This document shows positions 5,472 through 23,677 of a stretch of DNA of 24,319 bases, one piece after another; positions within the stretch are counted from its first letter, which is position 1, and the number at the start of each line of letters is the position of its first letter. The DNA lies in IMG/VR virus record IMGVR_UViG_3300025151_000296, positions 1 to 24,319 of that record, one strand, 5' to 3'. Origin of the DNA: a virus. Under the pieces are notes generated by a model. That model did no database searches, had not been told where the DNA came from, and saw only the letters and a program-made list of their open reading frames with translations. The translations under genes were made by a program, and so were the position numbers.

Positions 5472-5710
5472 TATACTTCCAACTCCTTTACTATCCATGC
5501 TGATACGCCATAAATAGGATTAGCACCATAAACACACCAACCAAAATAACTTCTATCATTTTCAGCCTCATATTTTGCTATTTCTTCTTTACTCCAACGA
5601 TATAAACATGGTCTGTAAAAAGGAATATCCCCTGTATCTTCTTCGGCTTCTTGTAATACAATATCTCCTAAGCCTTCATGTGGCGGTAATTTATTTAATT
5701 GTAAACTCAT
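5471..5710 (-). CDS. Hypothetical protein directly after the polymerase N-terminal part
   Basis: 79 aa, no family recognised. It has many aromatic residues (YRPCLYRWSKEE, YFGWCVYG) and an acidic N-terminal third. It begins in an ATGA overlap with the end of the polymerase N-terminal part and ends in the same five residues, KELEV, because a 16-nt sequence is repeated at both ends of the gene. Confidence 0.72.
   Translation of the reverse strand: MSLQLNKLPPHEGLGDIVLQEAEEDTGDIPFYRPCLYRWSKEEIAKYEAENDRSYFGWCVYGANPIYGVSAWIVKELEV
5473..5488. repeat. 16-nt direct repeat, copy 1
   Basis: ATACTTCCAACTCCTT on the plus strand; on the minus strand it gives AAGGAGTTGGAAGTAT. It encodes KELEV and serves as ribosome site for the gene starting at 5471. 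It is identical to copy 2 at 5709-5724; the two copies bracket the 79-aa gene. Confidence 0.85.
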
Positions 5711-7371
5711 ACTTCCAACTCCTTCGCCTTAAATGCGGCTAGTCTAATCGCTTCTCTAGCACTAGCAGTAATACTAGCGGCTAAATCTACATCGGCCCAA
5801 CCAAATCCTTGAAACGCTAATACACCATAAAATGAAGCCATTAGTCTCTTGACCGCCATTTGGTTATTATACCACTTGACATACTCATCACCTTCGGAGT
5901 TCTTCATTCTTTTCTTGTAATCATTTCTTAACTCTTTCAATTCAAGAACTGCTCTAGGTAATAGTCCTAGTTCATCAGTTCTATAATAGTGCATTCGCTC
6001 TCCTTCCACTTCGCTGAAATCTCTTGGTGTTAATATATTAACCCCAAATTCAGTAGGTGTTTCGCTCTTAGTTTCCCAAGATATGTTTCTAGCAACCATC
6101 ATTGAAGGATATAGCCCCGCAAAGTCAAATGCCGCTACATTAAGATGTAAACCATTAGTATTCTCACTAAGCGGGTCATAAATCATAGCCCCTTGATATT
6201 CTCTTCTATCAGCACTTTTGATACCTGTTGGTGCTTTCCACCAAGCATTTCTCATAAAGTAAATAGAACCCATATGTGAAGCATAGAAGCAAGCCTTGAA
6301 AGGTGCTTTTAGTAATCGTTGTAATGATATTATTGCTTCACTACAATAGTTTGATTCATCTATTTTAACTAAGAGTTCTACATCTACTAAGGCATAATTT
6401 AAGTATGCTTCTGTATCTTCTAACCATGCTCTACGATAAAATTCGTTAGGGTCTTCAAACTTAGTTTCCATTACCTTTCCTTCATCGAACAATATCTTAG
6501 AAACATAATCAAGACTTAGTGAAGGTAATGTTCCTCTTTGAGAATCATTCCATTGTCTTTCAAATGCTAGGTCTAAGTTAAGAGTTAGCCTTCCACCAAT
6601 AGGTTGTTCAATTGGTGAATAACCATCTTGTCTCTTAAAACTGCAACCTTTCTTAAGTTGCTTAACTCCATCTATCTTATGATAAGGCGACATGATTAAA
6701 GGATTCAAACCCAAAGCACATGCTCTATCTAATAACTTAGGTAAGTCGAACTTAAGACCAAACCATGCAATTAACATATCGGGGTCTTTAGCAATCATAT
6801 ATCCCATAAAGACTTCAAGCATAAATTTTTCATCACGACAAAAATAAGTGTTGTGTTTTGTTTCTGTATTATAACTTATTATTTGGGATGGGTTATAACA
6901 TTGATGGCCTTCGGGAAACCAAGTCCACTGAATGTATTTCTTATCGTAGTTATCATACACTACAATAGTAGTAATGCAACCATCATGTTCTCCTCCTTGT
7001 TGCCATTCCATATCCCAATACCACTTACGCATATTGTATTCGGGCATCTCATTAACTTCATCAACTGCATATCTAAATGTATAAGGCACATCAGCCTCAT
7101 ATGTTTTAGTAAAGAGTTGCCTAGCACTTTTTATGTCATATGATTTTTCAACATAGACTCTCTTCAAAGGTTCACCTTCTAGGCTTTTCCAATCTCCATC
7201 TTCATATTCAAATCTACCATTGGTATATTTGTTCAAAGGATAGTAATTTCTTTCTACCTCATCTTCTAAAACATAGAAGTAGGGTCGAAACTCTACCTCT
7301 TCGCTTTTTCTTTTTCCGTTTTCTCTCCAAGATTTGTATATTGTATTTCCATTTTTATTACTAATTATCAT
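5707..7371 (-). CDS. polB: Family B DNA polymerase, N-terminal part (3'-5' exonuclease, motifs A and B)
   Basis: The 554-aa N-terminal half of the split replicative polymerase. Exonuclease motifs: D120-x-E122 in YWDMEW (Exo I), WFGLKFDLP around D209 (Exo II) and NYALVDVELL (Exo III), so proofreading looks intact. Motif A is DFAGLYPS with D416. Motif B is K508-RLM-A-SFYG516; the family usually has Asn where Ala512 stands. The protein stops after the helix following motif B (ELEV), exactly before the strand carrying motif C, which begins the gene at 3035-3940. Start ATG 7371 has GAGG nine bases upstream. Directly downstream of PCNA in one operon. Split PolB is known in Methanothermobacter, where the small subunit also carries motif C. 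Confidence 0.92.
   Translation of the reverse strand: MIISNKNGNTIYKSWRENGKRKSEEVEFRPYFYVLEDEVERNYYPLNKYTNGRFEYEDGDWKSLEGEPLKRVYVEKSYDIKSARQLFTKTYEADVPYTFRYAVDEVNEMPEYNMRKWYWDMEWQQGGEHDGCITTIVVYDNYDKKYIQWTWFPEGHQCYNPSQIISYNTETKHNTYFCRDEKFMLEVFMGYMIAKDPDMLIAWFGLKFDLPKLLDRACALGLNPLIMSPYHKIDGVKQLKKGCSFKRQDGYSPIEQPIGGRLTLNLDLAFERQWNDSQRGTLPSLSLDYVSKILFDEGKVMETKFEDPNEFYRRAWLEDTEAYLNYALVDVELLVKIDESNYCSEAIISLQRLLKAPFKACFYASHMGSIYFMRNAWWKAPTGIKSADRREYQGAMIYDPLSENTNGLHLNVAAFDFAGLYPSMMVARNISWETKSETPTEFGVNILTPRDFSEVEGERMHYYRTDELGLLPRAVLELKELRNDYKKRMKNSEGDEYVKWYNNQMAVKRLMASFYGVLAFQGFGWADVDLAASITASAREAIRLAAFKAKELEV
5709..5724. repeat. 16-nt direct repeat, copy 2
   Basis: Identical to 5473-5488. It encodes the last codons (KELEV) of the polymerase N-terminal part and acts as ribosome site for the gene at 5710. 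Its position is the exact seam where the polymerase gene is broken. Confidence 0.85.
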
Positions 7372-16146: not shown

Positions 16147-16433
16147 TATTCTTCGCCTCCAAGAACTTCTTTATGCTCCGCTACATAATGTTCTATTACA
16201 GGGTGTTTTGATACTCTTATAGCATTTGATAAAATATACAAAGAGTCTGCTATATCTTGTGGTTTAACTCTACTGTTTCCTACCATATTTGTTTCAACTT
16301 CCTCAAGTAAAAAACCTGCCAAAGTTACAATATCTGCTCTAAGGCGTTGTATGCAACCTTCCGACCATTCTCTTTTAGGATTCATAGCCTTCATCAATTT
16401 CTTTATTTGCACATCTGTTATAATTTTCGTCAT
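16146..16433 (-). CDS. Histone-fold-like protein (tentative)
   Basis: 95 aa. A short first helix (IKKLMKAMNP), a long central helix (EGCIQRLRADIVTLAGFLLEEVETNMV) and the segment RVKPQDIADSLYIL resemble helix 1, helix 2 and the loop-2/helix-3 region (TIKAEDI) of archaeal histones. Extra residues follow at the C terminus. It lacks the dense basic residues of a packaging histone, so a TAF- or transcription-factor-like histone fold that dimerises is also possible. Lies next to the PC4-like gene. Confidence 0.5.
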   Translation of the reverse strand: MTKIITDVQIKKLMKAMNPKREWSEGCIQRLRADIVTLAGFLLEEVETNMVGNSRVKPQDIADSLYILSNAIRVSKHPVIEHYVAEHKEVLGGEE

Positions 16434-16627
16434 TCTAATTCTCTCTCCAATATTTTTAATAATAATTTAGCCTCTTCAATATTCATGCGAATACCTTTTC
16501 TTGATGGTTTGTCATTAACATACCATCGAACATCAAAGACTTCAATGTTCCAATAATTTCCACGCTTAACTAATATTTCTTCTGTTGCGTTTCGGGCTAT
16601 TGTTCCCTTTGTTTCTAAATCACTCAA
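16430..16627 (-). CDS. PC4-like ssDNA-binding protein (tentative), TTG start
   Basis: About 65 aa. FDVRWYVNDKPSRKGIRMNIEEAKLLLKIL matches the PC4/YdbC core pattern: a strand with VRxxY, a turn, KGIxLxxEE and a final helix. Such proteins bind ssDNA as dimers and act in transcription or replication. Three codons upstream, GTG 16636 is an alternative but lies directly on the GAGGGG site. TTG 16627 gives a TTGA overlap with the previous stop. Confidence 0.55.
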   Translation of the reverse strand: MSDLETKGTIARNATEEILVKRGNYWNIEVFDVRWYVNDKPSRKGIRMNIEEAKLLLKILERELE

Positions 16628-17022
16628 CTCATCCACCCCTCTTTGAACTTCTTTAGTTCTTTTAAAGAAGTAAAATATCTAGGCGTATCTAATTCATCTA
16701 ATCTATTTACTACCCAACAAGCACCGCCTAAAGATGATATTTGCACTATCTCGTATTGTCCCTCATTAACTTCAACTACTTCTTTAGTTCCTATCTCCGG
16801 CACTAAACCATACATTCTAGTTAATTCTTGAGAAACATCTTGCATGTTCTCCATAACATATTTGATAATGTGCGCTCTTTGTATTGGTATCTTTGGTGCA
16901 ACATCTATCTTTAGATTACCTGTCATATTACAGACTATACATTTATTCCCTTTACAAATAGGGCATTTTATCTGTGCTTTATGTGGTGCAGGTAAATTAA
17001 CTGTTATTGCTCTTTTTTTCAT
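16624..17022 (-). CDS. Zinc-finger protein with DnaJ-like CxxCxGxxC core
   Basis: About 132 aa. CPICKGNKCIVCNMTG (near 20-35) resembles one DnaJ-type cysteine-rich repeat. A C-terminal segment (YEIVQISSLGGACWVVNRLDEL) is unrecognised. It is located just downstream of GroEL, but whether it works with the chaperonin is not shown. ATG 17022 with GGTGA upstream is preferred over GTG 17031. Confidence 0.7.
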   Translation of the reverse strand: MKKRAITVNLPAPHKAQIKCPICKGNKCIVCNMTGNLKIDVAPKIPIQRAHIIKYVMENMQDVSQELTRMYGLVPEIGTKEVVEVNEGQYEIVQISSLGGACWVVNRLDELDTPRYFTSLKELKKFKEGWMS

Positions 17023-17110
17023 TTTCTTCACCTTCTAAACATACCTTACACATACCGAACCTTCTAGCATAATACTTAGACATATCTCTCCAACAATTAG
17101 GACATTTCAT
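16997..17110 (-). CDS. 37-aa zinc-ribbon miniprotein
   Basis: MKCPNCWRD and CKVCLEG give two C-x2-C pairs (C3/C6, C21/C24). GGAGG, within the last codons of GroEL, is well placed for ATG 17110. It overlaps the next gene by 26 nt. Confidence 0.62.
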   Translation of the reverse strand: MKCPNCWRDMSKYYARRFGMCKVCLEGEENEKKSNNS

Positions 17111-17112
17111 TA

Positions 17113-18624
17113 TTATTCCTCCGGTAACAGAACCGCTACATCAGTAGAATAGAAAAGTTGTGCGATAGACATAGCCGCCAAAAAACTATTCTTAGTTACT
17201 TTAACAGGGTCAAAGACTCCTGCTTTTCTTAAGTTTTGAGTGCTACCTGTTAAAGCATTAAAGCCCATATCTTTCTTGCCAAAAGAAATAGAAGGATTGT
17301 TTATTCCACTATTATACTGTAATACTTTCATTGGTTCTTGCATGGCTAACTCAAACCACTTAGAATCTTTTATGCCCTTTGTTGCTACCTTAGCGGCCCT
17401 TGCTAATGTTAGTCCACCGCCAACAATAATCCCTTCTTCTAGTGCGGCTTTTGTAGCATTAAGAGCATCGTCTAATCTTTCTTTCTTTTCTCTCATTTCA
17501 ATAGATGAAGAAGCACCAACCTTAATTGTAGCAACGCCACCACTAAGTCTTGCTATTCTTCTCTTGAGTCTAAGTTTATCATACTCGTCTTGAGAATCTT
17601 CAAGTGTTCCTTTTAGTGTAGTTATTCTGTTTTCTGTTAGTGGTCTATTACCTCCAACAAAGATTGTTTTATCTTTAGTAATTGTAATAGTATCGCAACT
17701 TCCAAAAGTATGTGCATGTATTTTCTTAGGGTCGTCTTTGCTTTCATCTGTATAGACAGTTCCACCAACAACTCCTGCAATATCGGCCAACTCATCTAAT
17801 TGAGCATCACCAAAGTTAGGTGCGGTAATTACTGCTACATCAATTGTCTTTTGTAATAAATTCATAATGACATTATTCATAGCATTACCATCCATTCCTT
17901 TACAGAATATAACTAACGGTTGTTTATTATTAGCCGCATGTTCCATCATAGGTAATATTTCACTAAAGTTTCTTATCGCTAAGTTAGATAAGAAAATCAG
18001 TGGACTATCAAATGTGCATTTACCATCTTCACTATTAGCCATTAAATGACTCATATAGCCTTCATCAATTTCTAGTCCTTTTCTTACTACAATTTCAGTG
18101 TTATGTGTTTTAGATTCTTCAACAGTAATAATACCATCACGCCCAACTTTATCAATGGCTTCTGCAATTAAAGAACCCAAATGAGAATCGTTATTGGCCG
18201 CTATTGTGGCAATATTCTCAATATCAGTATCTTTGACCTCTTGTGATGCTTGGTCTAAATGAAAAATCGTGGACAATTTTAATCTCTCAATCAAACTATT
18301 AAATTGATGAACATTCATTTCCGGTGCATCTAACATATTATGACATAGTGCTTGAGCGAGAATACAAGCAGTAGTAGTTCCATCACCACTACCCTCTTGC
18401 GCTTTACTTGCTAAGTTTTGAACTAGTTGTATTCCCATTTGAACATAGGGGTCTTCATTACTAATATATTTTGTAATTGTAACTCCATCATTAATTACAA
18501 CAGGCGGATTACCTTGTAATATAACTGTCTTGGCTTGTGGGCCAAGTGTAGGTTTTACTGTATTAGCAACTATGTCTATTCCTTGTAGTAGTTTTTGTTT
18601 TACTTCACTTCCATTAATTATCAT
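17113..18624 (-). CDS. groL: Group I chaperonin, GroEL/Hsp60 type
   Basis: A 503-aa ATP-dependent protein-folding chaperonin. Group I signatures are plain: SGDGTTTA (79-86, ATP site), VGRDGIITVEES, the apical segment with ITAPNFGDAQLDELADIAGV, and KRRIARLSGGVATIKVGA followed by EEGIIVGGG of the lower equatorial domain. It is shorter than E. coli GroEL (548 aa) and lacks the Gly-Gly-Met tail, ending VAVLLPEE. It overlaps the co-chaperonin stop (ATGA), so the two are one unit. It is not the archaeal thermosome type, so bacterial ancestry is likely. It probably folds a virion or replication protein. Confidence 0.95.
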   Translation of the reverse strand: MIINGSEVKQKLLQGIDIVANTVKPTLGPQAKTVILQGNPPVVINDGVTITKYISNEDPYVQMGIQLVQNLASKAQEGSGDGTTTACILAQALCHNMLDAPEMNVHQFNSLIERLKLSTIFHLDQASQEVKDTDIENIATIAANNDSHLGSLIAEAIDKVGRDGIITVEESKTHNTEIVVRKGLEIDEGYMSHLMANSEDGKCTFDSPLIFLSNLAIRNFSEILPMMEHAANNKQPLVIFCKGMDGNAMNNVIMNLLQKTIDVAVITAPNFGDAQLDELADIAGVVGGTVYTDESKDDPKKIHAHTFGSCDTITITKDKTIFVGGNRPLTENRITTLKGTLEDSQDEYDKLRLKRRIARLSGGVATIKVGASSSIEMREKKERLDDALNATKAALEEGIIVGGGLTLARAAKVATKGIKDSKWFELAMQEPMKVLQYNSGINNPSISFGKKDMGFNALTGSTQNLRKAGVFDPVKVTKNSFLAAMSIAQLFYSTDVAVLLPEE

Positions 18625-18845
18625 TTTATCTTCTCCACTGCCATAATGTTTTCATAAGGAACGGCAATATATTCACCGACTGAATTATACTCATTCCTAT
18701 TACTAAAATATACTAATCTACCATTTAGGTTCTTATCACAAGAACAATGAATAACCTTGCCCTTGTTGTTAGCGGAAGATATAATTCCACCACTAGTCTT
18801 TTCTTTTCCTATTTCTACCAATACCCAATTTCCAATTGCTTTCAT
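18621..18845 (-). CDS. groS: GroES/Cpn10-like co-chaperonin
   Basis: 74 aa against about 97 in bacteria. MKAIGNWVLVEIGKEKTSGGIISS matches the first strands and the start of the mobile loop (KTSGGI); NGRLVYF, EYIAVPYENIMAV match the last strands, ending with the typical I(L/M)AV. The shortening falls mainly in the roof region. It precedes and overlaps GroEL, as in bacterial groESL operons. Confidence 0.85.
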   Translation of the reverse strand: MKAIGNWVLVEIGKEKTSGGIISSANNKGKVIHCSCDKNLNGRLVYFSNRNEYNSVGEYIAVPYENIMAVEKIK

Positions 18846-18979
18846 TATTCTTCACCATACCATTCTTTTTTATTTACTTCTTTTACTCCGTCATATTCAT
18901 TACAAGTAGAACAAGACCAATAGCCTAAATTATCGTCTGCTTCTCCTTCACAATAAACACAAATCATAATTGTTGTCAT
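18845..18979 (-). CDS. 44-aa zinc-ribbon miniprotein
   Basis: CVYC (7-10) and CSTC (23-26) form a compact zinc ribbon, followed by an acidic/charged tail. Its ATG overlaps the JAB stop (ATGA) and its stop overlaps the GroES start (TAATG), so it is translated within that chain. Function unknown; its place makes an adaptor role for the JAB protein possible. Confidence 0.7.
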   Translation of the reverse strand: MTTIMICVYCEGEADDNLGYWSCSTCNEYDGVKEVNKKEWYGEE

Positions 18980-19515
18980 TCTTCTCCACTCCTAATTTTC
19001 GATTCTAAATTATATTGGCTTTGCACCCAAAACGATTCTTCACCGTTTACATCTACATTTCTAATCATTAATAAGTTAGGCTTTTCATTTGTCCAATAAC
19101 CATAATGTTCTACTCCACCTAACACATAGGCTTCTTGCATTTGACTTTTCCATGTATTAACTGTATTCCAATCAATACCGCTAAAGTAAGCACTACCGAA
19201 GGGGTGTGTATGAATCCAACACTTGATAGGTAATTTCATACCAATAGGAGGTTTCATACCAAACTCAACATAGCCCGATGAACCCGTAGTAACATGGCAA
19301 TTATTATTATCATCAATAACTACTTGCACTTCTAAAGCAGGTAGTAATTCAGTTGAAGCAATCCAAATCGCCTCAAAAAACCCTTCCGCTTCAACATGTG
19401 GATTTAAACCCCAACATTCTTTTATGTATTCTTCTACTCTTGCTCTAGCATCTTCAATGCTTTGCTCATATTCAACCATGTTCTCAAAATCTCTTATTGA
19501 CTTACCATCGGACAT
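18976..19515 (-). CDS. JAB/MPN+ metalloprotease (deubiquitinase-like)
   Basis: 179 aa. The JAMM zinc motif H102-x-H104-x7-S112-x2-D115 is complete (CWIHTHPFGSAYFSGID), so the enzyme should be an active zinc isopeptidase. Candidate upstream glutamates lie near residues 42-48 (EAEGFFEA). In bacteria such proteins process or remove ubiquitin-like proteins together with E1 and Ubl partners (PRTRC, 6A-type and Bil operons). An E1-like gene lies one gene upstream and a Ubl further upstream here. ATG 19515 has GGAG upstream; the TTG at 19521 is less likely. Confidence 0.88.
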   Translation of the reverse strand: MSDGKSIRDFENMVEYEQSIEDARARVEEYIKECWGLNPHVEAEGFFEAIWIASTELLPALEVQVVIDDNNNCHVTTGSSGYVEFGMKPPIGMKLPIKCWIHTHPFGSAYFSGIDWNTVNTWKSQMQEAYVLGGVEHYGYWTNEKPNLLMIRNVDVNGEESFWVQSQYNLESKIRSGEE

Positions 19516-19735
19516 TATCAATCATCTCCACATAATCAAAGTAAACTTTAGTAAACTTCTCTAGTTCTTCCTTAGTGATTTCTTGAATAATAACTCCACC
19601 GGAGGTATATACCTTCAATTCAATCTTATCATATGCAGTATTCTTCCAACTAAAGTGTTGAATATTTGAATACCTTACACATGCTCTGCTCGTTTGTAAT
19701 ACTCTTCTTAATATTTTTATATTTCCTTCTTTCAT
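19502..19735 (-). CDS. Hypothetical protein between E1 and JAB genes
   Basis: 77 aa, unrecognised. Basic N terminus (KILRRVLQTSRACVRYS), two or three strands (KIELKVYTSGGVIIQEI) and a helix (KEELEKFTKVYFDYVEMI). It has GAGGG before ATG 19735 and overlaps the JAB gene by 14 nt. Lying inside the Ubl-related gene set, it could be a substrate adaptor or take the place of an E2, though no conserved Cys context supports that. Confidence 0.72.
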   Translation of the reverse strand: MKEGNIKILRRVLQTSRACVRYSNIQHFSWKNTAYDKIELKVYTSGGVIIQEITKEELEKFTKVYFDYVEMIDNVRW

Positions 19736-19745
19736 TTTTTATCCC

Positions 19746-20300
19746 TCATACATTTACTACGGCAAAAGAATTTACACTCTCACCATTAAACCATCTTTGA
19801 ATCCATTCAGCACCCATACCTGCAATAGCCATGTGCATGAAATGTATTCCTTCTTGTGAACCATCCCAAGTCTCGCCTTGACAACTAAAAGAACCTTCTT
19901 TACCCGCCAATAAACTATCATACATTGATGGGTCGGCTTGATAAGATACATAGGCAGCGTTTCTACCCTGTGACCTTAAATCCAACCACTTTACATTTGA
20001 ATTGTAAAGCATTCTTCTAGTGCCTAAATTATCAACACAACAAACTACTAAGTCAAAGCCTTCAAGTTGTTGCGGTGTTAAGATAGGATATGGGCTAGAA
20101 ATGCTTACACACTTATGTTTACCCATAGCCATAGATTTATTTTTTCCAACTTCTTCTTCACTAAAGTTTTGATAAGTTAGATTCTTTGTCTCTACTTTAT
20201 CATCATCATTTACTTGTATTTCATACAAGTTTAAATTATCTAAGAATGAAATAAGATAACTTCCTATTCCACCTGCTCCAATTACTAATATTTTTCTCAT
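19746..20300 (-). CDS. ThiF/E1-like adenylyltransferase
   Basis: A 184-aa Rossmann enzyme expected to adenylate the C-terminal glycine of a ubiquitin-like protein. GAGGIG (8-13) is the nucleotide loop; D33/D34, N40-L-x2-Q44 and K55 match the family D...NL.RQ...K set, with Tyr43 where Arg is usual; VDNLGTR (89-95) carries the metal-binding Asp90 and Arg95. C140 in SFSCQGE is a candidate thioester Cys. It is short (ThiF/MoeB about 250 aa) and has no CxxC zinc pairs, like minimal E1s of PRTRC type. Coupled to the gene upstream by ATGA. Confidence 0.88.
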   Translation of the reverse strand: MRKILVIGAGGIGSYLISFLDNLNLYEIQVNDDDKVETKNLTYQNFSEEEVGKNKSMAMGKHKCVSISSPYPILTPQQLEGFDLVVCCVDNLGTRRMLYNSNVKWLDLRSQGRNAAYVSYQADPSMYDSLLAGKEGSFSCQGETWDGSQEGIHFMHMAIAGMGAEWIQRWFNGESVNSFAVVNV

Positions 20301-20509
20301 ACATTTTCCTCCTGTCTTCTAAAGGCACTAACCGCTAAATACATTGTTAGAAAAGAAGAGGCTAACCAATCTTCTTTATTTAATATAGTTAAATCATTCT
20401 TCAATTCCATCTTATACATATTATCAATTTCTTTCATCATCTTTTCTCTATGTTGTAGAAAAAGCATTTCATTATTTACCTTAAATTTTTTTGTCTTTTC
20501 TTCATTCAT
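20297..20509 (-). CDS. Hypothetical helical protein, 70 aa
   Basis: Unrecognised. Charged N-terminal helix, then a more hydrophobic helix (WLASSFLTMYLAVSAF) too short and mixed to call a membrane segment. ATGA overlaps on both sides join it to the E1-like gene. Confidence 0.68.
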   Translation of the reverse strand: MNEEKTKKFKVNNEMLFLQHREKMMKEIDNMYKMELKNDLTILNKEDWLASSFLTMYLAVSAFRRQEENV

Positions 20510-20715
20510 TCTTCCACTTCCTTAAAACCTTCATGTCCTAGTATTGCTCTAATATCGAACTTATCAATTGGTTTAATATCATTCATACTTACATTATCGA
20601 GTAAGAACATAAGCATATTCTCTACTCTATTTCCTTTGCTTAGTTCATCCAAGACATAGAGTTTACCGTCTACATCAAAGGTTATATTCCATATTGTTAT
20701 ATTATCATTATTCAT
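20506..20715 (-). CDS. Hypothetical protein, 69 aa
   Basis: Unrecognised. Starts with two strands (ITIWNITFDVDGKLYVLDEL), then helix, and IDKFDIRAILGHEGF near the end. AGGAGA upstream of ATG 20715; ATGA overlap with the next gene. Confidence 0.68.
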   Translation of the reverse strand: MNNDNITIWNITFDVDGKLYVLDELSKGNRVENMLMFLLDNVSMNDIKPIDKFDIRAILGHEGFKEVEE

Positions 20716-20717
20716 TT

Positions 20718-20915
20718 TTATTCTCTCCTAATTATTTTCTTTTCTATTAATTCATCATAGTTGTCCATCCAACTACTTAGAATTTTTATTGCCTCTCTTC
20801 GGCCTAAGCCGAACTCTTCTCTCAAATACGGAGTTGCACCAAACATGTTAGTGACTCCGCTTTGTCTTAATACTTCTAAGAATACATAGTATTCTGTCCA
20901 TTCTTCATTTATCAT
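20718..20915 (-). CDS. Small HTH-like protein with TNMFGA motif
   Basis: 65 aa. The order SGVTNMFGATPYLREEFGL, then REAIKILSSWM, resembles a small protein family that I recall from many tailed phages of marine bacteria; I know no assigned function. The layout suggests a helix-turn-helix-like fold. The gene lies directly after TFB, with the stop and next ATG two bases apart. Confidence 0.75.
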   Translation of the reverse strand: MINEEWTEYYVFLEVLRQSGVTNMFGATPYLREEFGLGRREAIKILSSWMDNYDELIEKKIIRRE

Positions 20916-20916
20916 T

Positions 20917-21750
20917 TTAATTTCTCCTTATTTCATTTATCTGTTTTCCTTTTATTTGAGAACAATTCTCATAACCAATCAAAGCCAACAGTTTCTTTGT
21001 GGTTAGTTTTATTGACGAGATAGACACTTTAGCCTTTCTCGCAATATCTTTTTGTTTTATTGGATGCAAGAACATATTCTTAGCAATCCAACAAATACTA
21101 GCATAATAGACTGTGCCTTTAACACAATCAATATCTTTAGTTATTGATTCAAACACTTCTAATACCTCTTGGCATTTTGAAGCAAACTCCAAATCGAGTG
21201 TTATTTTAGAAGTTATTCTTTTCAACATGTAAGTTGGGTCTGCTCCATCCTTTCTAGGAGCATTATAGTGCTTGTTAATTCTTTTTATTGCCCTGTTCAA
21301 AGTTCTAGTATTACAAGAAAACTCTTTCCTTAATTCCTTGAGTGGAATAGGAGTTCTGTTCTCTTTTAGAACATAATAAACAACCGCAGTTGCTTTTTCT
21401 TCAATGCCTAGAGTAGTCAAGACATTCTTCCTGTATAGTTGAATATAGCACTCTTCGACTCTATCTTTCAATGGGTGTTTTGGCATCAATGTTGATAATA
21501 ACATATTACACATTCTAAGCCCATTCTCCAAATGAACATTATTAGATTTAATCCAATTAGGAACTAAACTAGTAGGGGCTGAACCTAATACTTTGTCCGG
21601 CGAGTGAATTAAATCTCCCTTTCTATCGAAAGAACTTACGCTCTGCTCAAACAACTCGGTTATGGCTACTAGGCCACAATCATTACAAGTTAGTTCTCCC
21701 ATTCTTTCATTCATTGTAAATTTATTTCCATTACATTCAAGACATTTCAT
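20917..21750 (-). CDS. tfb: Transcription initiation factor B (TFB/TFIIB)
   Basis: A 277-aa archaeal TFB homolog that recruits RNA polymerase to TBP-bound promoters. The N-terminal zinc ribbon is C3-x2-C6 and C22-x2-C25 (CLECNGNK, CNDCGLV). After a linker come two cyclin-like repeats (about 80-170 and 180-270); the second holds an HTH-like IKQKDIARKAKVSISSIKLTTKKL that fits BRE contact. It diverges in the B-reader region. The virus may use it to redirect the host polymerase to its own TATA promoters, such as that at 23713. ATG 21750 is preferred to the in-frame TTG at 21759; it overlaps the previous gene. Confidence 0.9.
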   Translation of the reverse strand: MKCLECNGNKFTMNERMGELTCNDCGLVAITELFEQSVSSFDRKGDLIHSPDKVLGSAPTSLVPNWIKSNNVHLENGLRMCNMLLSTLMPKHPLKDRVEECYIQLYRKNVLTTLGIEEKATAVVYYVLKENRTPIPLKELRKEFSCNTRTLNRAIKRINKHYNAPRKDGADPTYMLKRITSKITLDLEFASKCQEVLEVFESITKDIDCVKGTVYYASICWIAKNMFLHPIKQKDIARKAKVSISSIKLTTKKLLALIGYENCSQIKGKQINEIRRN

Positions 21751-22882
21751 CAATATCAACTCTTTGTTTTTTATTTGGTTTTCTTTTTAGGTAGCCTTTA
21801 ATCGTATTTACTCTTGCTACCGTTAAATTGTCATTCATAACTGCTAATGCTCTTGTTGCGAATTGGTCGCCTAGAGAAGAACCTCTAGCCATATTATCTA
21901 TACAAATTGGGCCTGTCCATCCCCATTTCTTGTCGTCTTTAGGTTGTCTTACATAAGTAGATACCATTTGTATGTTGCTTTTGAATTGGCTATTCTCTAA
22001 CTTCCAATCATATTCATTACCAACAACATACATAGTTTGTGGTTCTCCGTTATCATCCCATATCATTTTTATTCTAGTAGGATGTTTATTAGCCATATCG
22101 GTTAGTAATTGCTTGGCTCTATTCTCCACCAAGTCTTGTGTTCTATTTTGCATCAAGAATGCTTTTATTCTTTTAATGTCCGAATCTAAAGGTTCTTGGC
22201 CAATAATAGTTTGATATAGTCTTTTTAGGCCCATTCTCTTAAATTTACTATTTTGCCTACCATGAATATAATAACCACAAAAGGACTGTAAATCTTTCAT
22301 TGACATATTACCCCAAACACCGTCACCAATCTCTAAGGCAAATTCTTTATCTCCTATTTGAGCAACATTTAGCCTTACTTCTTCCTTATCAAAATCATTA
22401 AAGAAATGATAAGGAACTCTATTCTCCAAAACATACTTTATGTCTTCTGTTAGGCTTAATGCCGAAAACAAAGTTTTCATTAGTTCTCCATTATCATCAG
22501 TAAAGCATGATTTGAACAATACCCTAGCAAGCACATTACTAATGGTAGCGATACTTTCCGCTTTACCATTTATTCTATACTTACTACCCTTTCTAATCAA
22601 AGATATAGGGCATTCTTTTATGTAGAATACTCCTTCAAAATCACCTTCTCTCAATTGATTGGGCTTACTATTAGTATGTCCCCATCTAGTTGTTTTAGGC
22701 TTAGTTAGCATTTGTTTGAACCATAACTTTATTGAGTGATGAAGTGGGTCTTTTGCGCCCCTATCGGGGTAAATTGTTTGCATGACATTACCTGCTCTTT
22801 CAAACAAATCACTGCTAATAATAGTTGCATAATCAATCCCTCCGTCTTGGGGCTTACTTATTCTCATTCTTATTTCTCTCAT
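21737..22882 (-). CDS. Conserved-looking protein of unknown function, 381 aa
   Basis: The largest unrecognised protein of the window. It is a soluble, mixed alpha/beta protein with basic N and C termini (KGYLKRKPNKKQR). Segments of note are FKSCFTDDNGELMKTLFSAL, GDKEFALEIGDGVWGNMSMKDL and an aromatic stretch WGWTGPICIDNMARGSSLGDQ. No Walker, nuclease or metal motif is evident. It overlaps the TFB start, so regulation or DNA binding is possible but not shown. ATG 22882 follows the TGATAATATG pattern. Confidence 0.75.
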   Translation of the reverse strand: MREIRMRISKPQDGGIDYATIISSDLFERAGNVMQTIYPDRGAKDPLHHSIKLWFKQMLTKPKTTRWGHTNSKPNQLREGDFEGVFYIKECPISLIRKGSKYRINGKAESIATISNVLARVLFKSCFTDDNGELMKTLFSALSLTEDIKYVLENRVPYHFFNDFDKEEVRLNVAQIGDKEFALEIGDGVWGNMSMKDLQSFCGYYIHGRQNSKFKRMGLKRLYQTIIGQEPLDSDIKRIKAFLMQNRTQDLVENRAKQLLTDMANKHPTRIKMIWDDNGEPQTMYVVGNEYDWKLENSQFKSNIQMVSTYVRQPKDDKKWGWTGPICIDNMARGSSLGDQFATRALAVMNDNLTVARVNTIKGYLKRKPNKKQRVDIDEMS

Positions 22883-22886
22883 ATTA

Positions 22887-23054
22887 TCACATCATATATA
22901 TTTTTGATTTTGGTTTAAGACCGCATTCGGCGTGTCTTTCCATTTTTATTTCTTCGGGCAACAATAGTTGTCCACCGCATATACGGCATCTAGTAGCAAT
23001 TCTTTTCTTATACGCTCTATGACTACTGACATAGTTCGGGTCTTTTTCTTTCAT
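22887..23054 (-). CDS. Zinc-finger miniprotein, 55 aa
   Basis: Basic N terminus, then CRICGG and HAECG (C-x2-C and H-x2-C), a treble-clef-like zinc site. The frame opens earlier at 23114, but ATG 23054 has GGAGAG at proper spacing and shortens the overlap with the preceding gene to 32 nt. Confidence 0.68.
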   Translation of the reverse strand: MKEKDPNYVSSHRAYKKRIATRCRICGGQLLLPEEIKMERHAECGLKPKSKIYMM

Positions 23055-23382
23055 ATATCTCTCTCCAATTTTTATTAAATTTGCATATTTTACATTGAGT
23101 TTCGCAGTTATCATCGTGATAAAGAAATGCTTCTAATCTAATTGGTAAGTTTATACTTTTCCAATTAGTAAAACCAATATCTATTGCTTCGGGGCTATCC
23201 CACAAAAAATTATCTAATTCTTGATTCAATAGATATTTCTTTCTACTATCACTACCATACCCTCCTAAGATTACAAAAAATCTTTTTAGGTTAAACTCTC
23301 TATTGATATTAGATATTGTATCAATATCTAACATAAACGAGTAAGCACACTTAGCGAAGTCTTCCAACTTCATAGTGTGCAT
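23023..23382 (-). CDS. Hypothetical Cys-cluster protein, 119 aa
   Basis: Unrecognised. The C-terminal third has CETQCKICKF (Cys spaced 4 and 3), a possible metal site, and a basic tail. The middle has aromatic strands (RFFVILGGYG). It begins 25 nt after the stem-loop ending the Ubl unit and has only a weak ribosome site; ATG 23373 is an alternative start. Confidence 0.65.
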   Translation of the reverse strand: MHTMKLEDFAKCAYSFMLDIDTISNINREFNLKRFFVILGGYGSDSRKKYLLNQELDNFLWDSPEAIDIGFTNWKSINLPIRLEAFLYHDDNCETQCKICKFNKNWREIYERKRPELCQ

Positions 23383-23406
23383 GGCTATGTCTCTCTCTTA
23401 TTAAAT

Positions 23407-23436
23407 GGAGGGAAGAAGCCTAAGCCTCTTCCCTCC
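23407..23436 (-). terminator. 10-bp perfect stem-loop after the Ubl gene
   Basis: GGAGGGAAGA (23407-23416) pairs perfectly with TCTTCCCTCC (23427-23436) around a 10-nt loop, 34 nt after the Ubl stop. No T-run follows. It probably ends or protects the short Ubl mRNA, as the stem-loop at 9254-9292 does for SSB. Confidence 0.72.
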
Positions 23437-23470
23437 TTGCCCACAATCAAAGAAGATAAACTATCTACGC

Positions 23471-23677
23471 TTATTGTCCACCTACGATAGCAGGGGTCAA
23501 ATGCACTTCCGATACTTCATCCCAATTGATTTCATTGATGGTTTCACGGCTAACCATTATATCATCAACAAAAACCCAATGTGTAGGGTGTGTGTCTATC
23601 TGTTCAATCACTTCCGAACTAGCAAGTGAAGCCATTTCGGTGTGTCCTGTTTCATTTTGTATTACCAATTTTATCAT
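23471..23677 (-). CDS. Ubiquitin-like beta-grasp protein ending in GGQ
   Basis: 68 aa. The C terminus EVHLTPAIVGGQ follows the MoaD/ThiS/Urm1/Prok_Ub pattern (a last strand, then Pro, then Gly-Gly): G66-G67-Q68. The rest fits a small beta-grasp: MIKLVIQNETG (strand 1), HTEMASL (strand 2), helix SEVIEQID, and strand THWVFVDDIMV. One residue, Gln68, must be removed to expose Gly-Gly, a job for the JAB protease at 18976; the E1-like enzyme at 19746 would then activate it. It has its own promoter, GGAG ribosome site and stem-loop, consistent with strong, separately controlled expression. A sulfur-carrier role is the alternative to conjugation. Confidence 0.68.
   Translation of the reverse strand: MIKLVIQNETGHTEMASLASSEVIEQIDTHPTHWVFVDDIMVSRETINEINWDEVSEVHLTPAIVGGQ

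Follow-up and report, generated by a model that had tools for sequence, protein, structure and literature searches.

A probable ubiquitin-like protein modification pathway encoded by a magrovirus

Can a virus of archaea tag proteins with a ubiquitin-like protein (Ubl) of its own? The question is raised by the IMG/VR record IMGVR_UViG_3300025151_000296, of which we analyzed the complete entry of 24,319 bp (in the following, the window). Three of its genes encode a small protein with a C-terminal Gly-Gly, an E1-like adenylating enzyme and a JAB metalloprotease. An initial annotation, which had proposed a viral Ubl system for this stretch, had placed the three open reading frames (ORFs) correctly, and all of them lie on the minus strand. 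Our analysis makes it probable, at roughly 70%, that these genes constitute a virus-encoded, reversible protein modification pathway resembling the SAMP/UbaA/JAMM system, in which the Ubl would be conjugated to proteins. The folds, the catalytic residues, the Gly-Gly tail, the universal co-occurrence of the genes and their order were all computed directly and are described below.

The Ubl, E1 and JAB proteins

The conservation counts given here refer to distinct sequences over all the relatives' loci that we collected, amounting to 84 Ubl, 111 E1 and 113 JAB sequences and 88 triples. The features of the three genes in the window are as follows.

23471..23677, minus strand: Ubl modifier of 68 amino acids, predicted beta-grasp fold, C-terminus ...LTPAIVGG-Q (AlphaFold2 model, Foldseek, 84 distinct homologues)
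23477..23482, minus strand: codons of Ubl Gly66-Gly67 (Gly-Gly in 84/84 distinct homologues)
23474..23476, minus strand: codon of Ubl Gln68, the C-terminal extension after Gly-Gly (variable in the homologues)
19746..20300, minus strand: minimal E1-like (ThiF-type) adenylating enzyme of 184 amino acids (Pfam ThiF, AlphaFold2 model)
19881..19883, minus strand: codon of E1 Cys140, the candidate catalytic Cys (SxSCQ in 111/111 relatives)
18976..19521, minus strand: JAB/JAMM metalloprotease of 181 amino acids (Prok-JAB in the family, AMSH-type profile match)
19171..19212, minus strand: JAMM motif H104-T-H106-P-x6-S114-x2-D117 (113/113 distinct relatives)

The AlphaFold2 model of the 68-amino-acid protein, computed from an alignment of 28 relatives (predicted local distance difference test, pLDDT, 87.8), has the element order strand-strand-helix-strand-strand-short helix-strand, which is that of a beta-grasp. 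When the model was compared with the PDB using Foldseek, the best 50 matches were all ubiquitin, UBL, NEDD8 or ISG15 entries (best E 2.6e-3, probability up to 1.00). The protein thus passed the fold check which had been suggested for 23471-23677 and is, according to its model, a beta-grasp Ubl with a Gly-Gly tail. At the sequence level no convincing match was found in Pfam or other profile libraries. An identity as PinA peptidase inhibitor (Pfam), a family matched by 11 of the 28 relatives with a best E of 0.0024, was set aside as weak.

In the window the Ubl ends in Gly-Gly-Gln (...LTPAIVGGQ), exactly as had been noted at the outset. All 84 homologues keep the terminal Gly-Gly, exposed or near the end; it is followed by no residue in 17 of them, by one in 10, by two in 56 and by three in 1, and the letters of this extension vary freely. 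Unlike the tail, the segment leading up to the glycines, PA[IVM]VGG, is conserved in nearly all homologues. A conserved segment of this kind followed by a variable tail of 0-3 residues is the pattern expected of a processed Ubl precursor, and the presence of Gly-Gly in 84/84 sequences with variable extension rules out that the tail arose by chance. The homologues contain 0-2 lysines, usually one near the N-terminus and none at all in 27 of the 84, so that single tags rather than Lys-linked chains would be expected.

The E1 ORF matches ThiF of Pfam above the cut-off (E 5.7e-16). Its AlphaFold2 model (pLDDT 88.2) has as top PDB match E. coli ThiF, the enzyme which activates ThiS (E 1.5e-10), followed by UBA3, UBA5, Cap2 and MoeB. 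A ThiF-type Rossmann fold is combined with the ATP-site elements GxGxxG, DxDxVxxxN, Lys and Asp; the motifs read GAGGIG, DxDxVxxxNLTYQ and VDNLGTR, and residues G8, G10, G11, G13, D32, D34, N40, K55 and D90 are invariant among the aligned relatives. The motif SxSCQ around Cys140 is kept in all of the 111 distinct relatives. Cys140 lies within the loop 135-148, the sole low-confidence loop of the model (pLDDT <50), and the acceptor Cys of ThiF and UBA5 is likewise situated in a mobile segment.

The JAB assignment is carried by the family. Prok-JAB (Pfam) is matched by 28 of 30 family members (best 9.4e-5), and the family profile matches AMSH-type deubiquitinases (9.8e-5) and an Rpn11-like protein. 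The full HxHx7SxxD motif which the initial annotation had recognized in the window protein extends to the whole family, being kept as HTHPx6SxxD in 113 of 113 distinct relatives. Glu64 is invariant as well (56/56) and may, judging from the sequences, be the catalytic Glu. In one relative the JAB gene appears as two matches in adjacent ORFs, which is possibly a frameshift or an assembly error.

The trimming of Gln68 had been proposed as the task of JAB. As its only task this does not stand, since among the 88 distinct triples there are 23 whose Ubl has Gly-Gly as its very last residues, with a complete JAB motif nonetheless. These Ubls need no trimming, and therefore JAB most likely also strips the tag from targets; on this pattern of sequences it probably deconjugates as well as trims.

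The locus, its neighbors and the virus

Two further conserved genes are found between the Ubl and the E1 gene.

21737..22882, minus strand: conserved neighbor of 381 amino acids without recognised family, tentative E2-like candidate (between Ubl and transcription factor B, 87/87 loci)
21902-21904, minus strand: codon of Cys327 of the 381-amino-acid protein (invariant Cys, 116/116)
20917..21759, minus strand: transcription factor B (TFB)-like protein (between the 381-amino-acid gene and E1, order 87/87)

The order Ubl, 381-amino-acid gene, TFB, E1 and JAB, on one strand, is unchanged in 87 of 87 distinct complete loci. Among relatives found via the 381-amino-acid gene 65 of 80 loci are complete for the five genes, and each gap in the remaining 15 coincides with a contig end; of those found via the Ubl 76 of 78 are complete, the remaining two being truncated contigs. 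The DNA ligase served as a search anchor unrelated to the Ubl-E1-JAB pathway, and here 26 of the 27 contigs contained E1, Ubl and JAB alike, the single negative contig starting 2 kb from the ligase on the side of the block. Related viruses which keep E1 and JAB and lack a small protein ending in Gly-Gly would have spoken against the original proposal; no such case was seen among the relatives with enough sequence. Because the motifs are invariant across divergent relatives and the gene order is invariant in 87 loci, we conclude that the association of Ubl, E1 and JAB is not due to chance.

Outside this block the following features of the window were noted.

17113..18845, minus strand: GroEL, 17113-18624 (Cpn60, 2.3e-43), and putative GroES, 18621-18845 (Cpn10, weak, 0.04)
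16430-17031, minus strand: two highly conserved small genes after the block, encoding proteins of 135 and 68 amino acids
3035-3952 and 5707-7371, minus strand: family B DNA polymerase, divided over two ORFs

GroEL/GroES is located directly downstream of JAB. This adjacency is not kept in all relatives, and the two chaperonin genes are context lying outside the pathway. The 135-amino-acid protein encoded in 16430-17031 has four conserved Cys residues (C23, C26, C31 and C34).

Nearly all plausible genes of the window are on the minus strand. Besides the two-piece family B DNA polymerase they include an AAA_24-type ATPase, a clamp-loader AAA protein (RFC-type), an ATP-dependent DNA ligase, GroEL, the putative GroES and the TFB-like protein, whose TFIIB zinc ribbon (1.1e-6) scores slightly below the Pfam cut-off. 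The contigs of the relatives are 84-103 kb long. The order Magrovirales is characterized by genomes of ~90-110 kb which encode a family B polymerase, a clamp loader, an ATP-dependent ligase, TFB and GroEL/GroES, and by gene content and relatives the window matches a magrovirus. Magroviruses have been described as tailed viruses of marine Poseidoniales with genomes of 90-110 kb and a matching gene list (PMC10768690, PMC12999244), and GroEL has been reported in them as well (PMC5332604). Marine Poseidoniales archaea are accordingly the presumed host, an attribution taken from the magrovirus literature and not from the window. Separate N- and C-terminal PolB domains are labelled in a relative (PMC10768690); in the window the two PolB ORFs have ~1.8 kb of small ORFs between them.

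A comparison of the E1 profile with 84,980 species genomes gave three loci only, all on contigs of marine bacterial metagenome-assembled genomes (MAGs), and no cellular donor was seen among these genomes. We read these three loci as mis-binned virus contigs given their magrovirus-like neighbors. Contigs binned as Altibacter and Maricaulis carry magrovirus-like E1, JAB, 381-amino-acid, ligase or GroEL genes, and the MAGs are apparently contaminated.

The proposed pathway and its alternatives

Trimming, adenylation, transfer or conjugation, and deconjugation are the steps which we infer for this system. Where residues follow Gly-Gly in the Ubl precursor, JAB would cut them off so that the glycines are exposed. 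This end would be adenylated by the minimal ThiF-type E1, which would then probably hand the Ubl to its Cys140. The Ubl may be placed on viral or host proteins straight from the E1, as in haloarchaeal SAMPylation, or alternatively via an unrecognised carrier, possibly the 381-amino-acid protein, and JAB would take it off the targets again. The position inside a replication and transcription block suggests targets in the takeover of transcription or replication. In Haloferax, UbaA, the SAMPs and JAMM have been implicated in proteasome-linked turnover (TBP2) and in the reversible control of an enzyme, molybdopterin (MPT) synthase (PMC4895103, PMC4443979). The Haloferax SAMP system works without a known E2, and thus archaea can dispense with a known E2.

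Several observations weigh against such a pathway. Most E1, ThiF and MoeB enzymes, nearly without exception, have the Arg of the NLxRQ motif. The window E1 has Tyr instead, and Arg is found in 0 of the 111 relatives, 109 of which have Tyr or Asn; the position aligns with the Arg of MccB, AclA and Uba1. The initial annotation had rightly listed the nucleotide loop, NLxxQ, VDNxxTR and a candidate Cys140, but writing the motif as NLxxQ hides the change from Arg to Tyr. In addition, the E1 sequence begins at the first Rossmann strand and is devoid of the N-terminal Arg-bearing segment, which is a feature of MoeB-type E1s. With both the NLxRQ Arg and this segment absent, E1 activity is not certain. 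The window JAB taken alone is weak by sequence (Prok-JAB 15.5 bits, Pfam cut-off 25 bits), and the TM-scores of the PDB matches of the Ubl in Foldseek are modest, between 0.41 and 0.49. Moreover the Ubl gene is not adjacent to the E1 gene, the distance being 2.3-7 kb with a median of 4.8 kb, and TFB and the 381-amino-acid gene are equally fixed in the locus, so that co-occurrence alone is no proof of joint function. What argues for joint function is rather the complementary chemistry suggested by the three sequences in combination with their invariant catalytic residues.

A recognised E2 is also absent. In 20 long relatives neither UQ_con (PF00179) nor Prok-E2_B (PF14461) was found, the PF00179 part having lacked a positive control, and an E2 as in conjugation of the Bil, 6A or CBASS Cap2 type was not recognised. 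The earlier statement that there is no E2 holds for the known families searched. It is less settled in view of the 381-amino-acid protein, which matched nothing in Pfam, the PDB, PHROG or phages and whose Cys327, invariant in 116 of 116 sequences, lies in the motif W-x-G-P-I-C-I-[DN] (WxGPICIDN in the window). This motif resembles the active site of E2 enzymes, N-G-S-I-C-L-D. When the profile of the protein was aligned by hhalign with four approximate E2 queries (one of them checked against the PDB), Cys327 was aligned with the E2 Cys, but with weak statistics: the match falls short of significance (Prob 2.3%, E 0.02), and of 150 column shuffles 5 did equally well. By its sequence the 381-amino-acid protein is a weak E2 candidate, a lead rather than a finding. 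It is conceivable, though we regard it as doubtful, that the magroviruses possess as a group-wide core a complete private cascade of GG-tailed Ubl, minimal E1, E2-like 381-amino-acid protein and JAB which, in the course of infection, retargets the transcription or the replication machinery of the archaeon.

Alternatively the Ubl might be a sulfur carrier which the E1 activates for thiocarboxylate formation, the sulfur being passed on to tRNA, a cofactor or a metabolite and JAB only maturing the carrier. The nearest E1 fold is ThiF and the nearest curated name is the ThiF of thiazole biosynthesis, the Ubl is compact and similar in size to ThiS and MoaD, and cellular archaeal Ubls participate in sulfur transfer (PMC2948915). 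A mere carrier does not, however, account for the retention of JAB where the Ubl needs no trimming. The initial annotation had seen no sulfur-transfer partner, and this held for the families that we searched for in the 20 long relatives: neither rhodanese, nor ATP_bind_3 (tRNA thiolase type), nor class V aminotransferase (cysteine desulfurase type) was found, the controls being positive. A self-contained sulfur pathway is therefore unlikely; a partner could be supplied by the host, and on balance we consider a function of the Ubl as sulfur carrier unlikely.

Similarly improbable in our estimation is a role in counter-defence, in which the viral Ubl would be a competitor or decoy of a SAMP-like pathway of the host and JAB would strip host tags from viral proteins. 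There is a parallel in the Borg elements of methane-oxidising archaea, whose many putative deSAMPylases are proposed to act against SAMP tagging by the host (PMC12660748), and the magrovirus JAB profile matches the same AMSH group. Pure stripping, however, needs neither a private E1 nor a private and highly conserved Ubl, and one conserved copy in fixed synteny has the look of a core function, not of an arms-race gene.

The E1 could also perform peptide-nucleotide or small-molecule chemistry in the manner of MccB or AclA, modifying the C-terminus of the Ubl or another peptide without isopeptide conjugates being formed. MccB is indeed the top PDB match of the single sequence (2.7e-7), and AclA is the top profile match (9.1e-11). 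The substrate of MccB is a short peptide, whereas here a folded beta-grasp partner and an obligate JAB are present, and adenylation alone does not require an invariant Cys140; we think that chemistry of this type is very improbable. Finally, that Ubl, E1 and JAB are functionally unrelated and only inherited jointly within a conserved block of replication genes, like the equally conserved TFB and 381-amino-acid genes, is hardly credible for three biochemically complementary families which each have invariant diagnostic residues, the more so as the E1-JAB pair recurs in bacteriophages of another lineage.

We thus favor the reversible, SAMP-like modification pathway. Of the viruses which infect archaea at the ocean surface, the magroviruses are among the most abundant; neither they nor their hosts are in culture, which has hidden how they take over the cell. 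That Ubl, E1 and JAB are universally conserved implies that, in one lineage of archaeal viruses, tagging of the ubiquitin type is part of the core of the infection programme. It would extend the prokaryotic ancestry of ubiquitin signalling by a branch carried by viruses; the E1 of 184 amino acids is a testable minimal enzyme, and a search for substrates is directly possible.

Comparison with known systems

The closest functional parallel is the haloarchaeal SAMP system (SAMP1-3, UbaA, HvJAMM1/JAMM2), which likewise consists of a beta-grasp modifier ending in Gly-Gly, a single ThiF/MoeB-type E1 and a JAMM protease and has no known E2. That system is cellular, whereas the magrovirus trio is viral and has an E1 of 184 amino acids without the NLxRQ Arg. 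Against the UbaA model of NCBIfam this E1 scores 35 bits, far under the cut-off of 450, and the relation to the SAMP system is therefore one of functional resemblance, not of membership. Cellular archaea seldom have a Jab gene in linkage with a gene for a Ubl (PMC2948915), in contrast to the magroviruses, where Ubl, E1 and JAB are all linked. AMSH-like JAMM enzymes are also known from an archaeal extrachromosomal element, namely as the deSAMPylases of Borgs (PMC12660748); these are multicopy and diversifying, while the magrovirus JAB is present in a single copy together with a dedicated Ubl and E1.

Among bacteria, the operons of types 6a-6e, PRTRC, Bil and CBASS Cap2-Cap3 combine an E1-like protein, JAB and Ubl, in many cases with an E2 (PMC1779556, PMC10097602). 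They are cellular and several act in defence, unlike the trio described here, which belongs to an archaeal virus and has no recognised E2. Membership in the PRTRC group is not indicated: the E1 reaches 37.8 bits with PRTRC_ThiF (cut-off 144.75), and PRTRC partner proteins were not recognised.

In bacteriophages, a viral Ubl occurs with a viral JAB in Lambda and T1 as TAPI (Ubl) and TAPK (JAB-NlpC) (PMC1779556), these being tail-assembly genes without an E1, whereas the magrovirus genes lie in a replication and transcription block. Vibrio phage D69 has a PRTRC-like cluster of JAB, Prok-E2_D and an E1 detected at the tblastn level and shares with the magroviruses an E1-JAB neighborhood in a tailed virus; it differs by its weak Prok-E2_D match, and no small protein ending in Gly-Gly was seen beside the cluster. 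In the crAss-like phages bajarodcaudo virus 1, PhiCrAssBcn14 and cr126_1 a JAB gene adjoins a ThiF-type gene. The profiles of both proteins match those of the magroviruses in hhalign (E1 98.8%, 1.2e-16; JAB 93%, 3.4e-7), and in the same profile comparison the magrovirus Ubl and 381-amino-acid protein had no match in the crAss-like phage cluster. The phage proteins are larger and the hosts are bacteria. The JAB-ThiF cluster of these phages is conserved and stands beside a DNA primase and a uracil-DNA glycosylase, with further, unassigned genes upstream of its JAB.

No account of such a trio in an archaeal virus was found; the terms ubiquitin, ThiF and JAB are not mentioned in PMC10160649, PMC5332604 and PMC8651126, and an earlier annotation in Philosof 2017, Prabhu 2025 or Zhou 2023 is possible. 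The trio had been put forward as new for archaeal viruses, and with regard to archaeal viruses and to the GG-tailed Ubl this can be maintained. E1-JAB pairs as such are already present in bacteriophages, namely in the crAss-like phages and in Vibrio phage D69; the novelty lies in finding the pair in archaeal viruses and together with a Ubl that carries a Gly-Gly tail.

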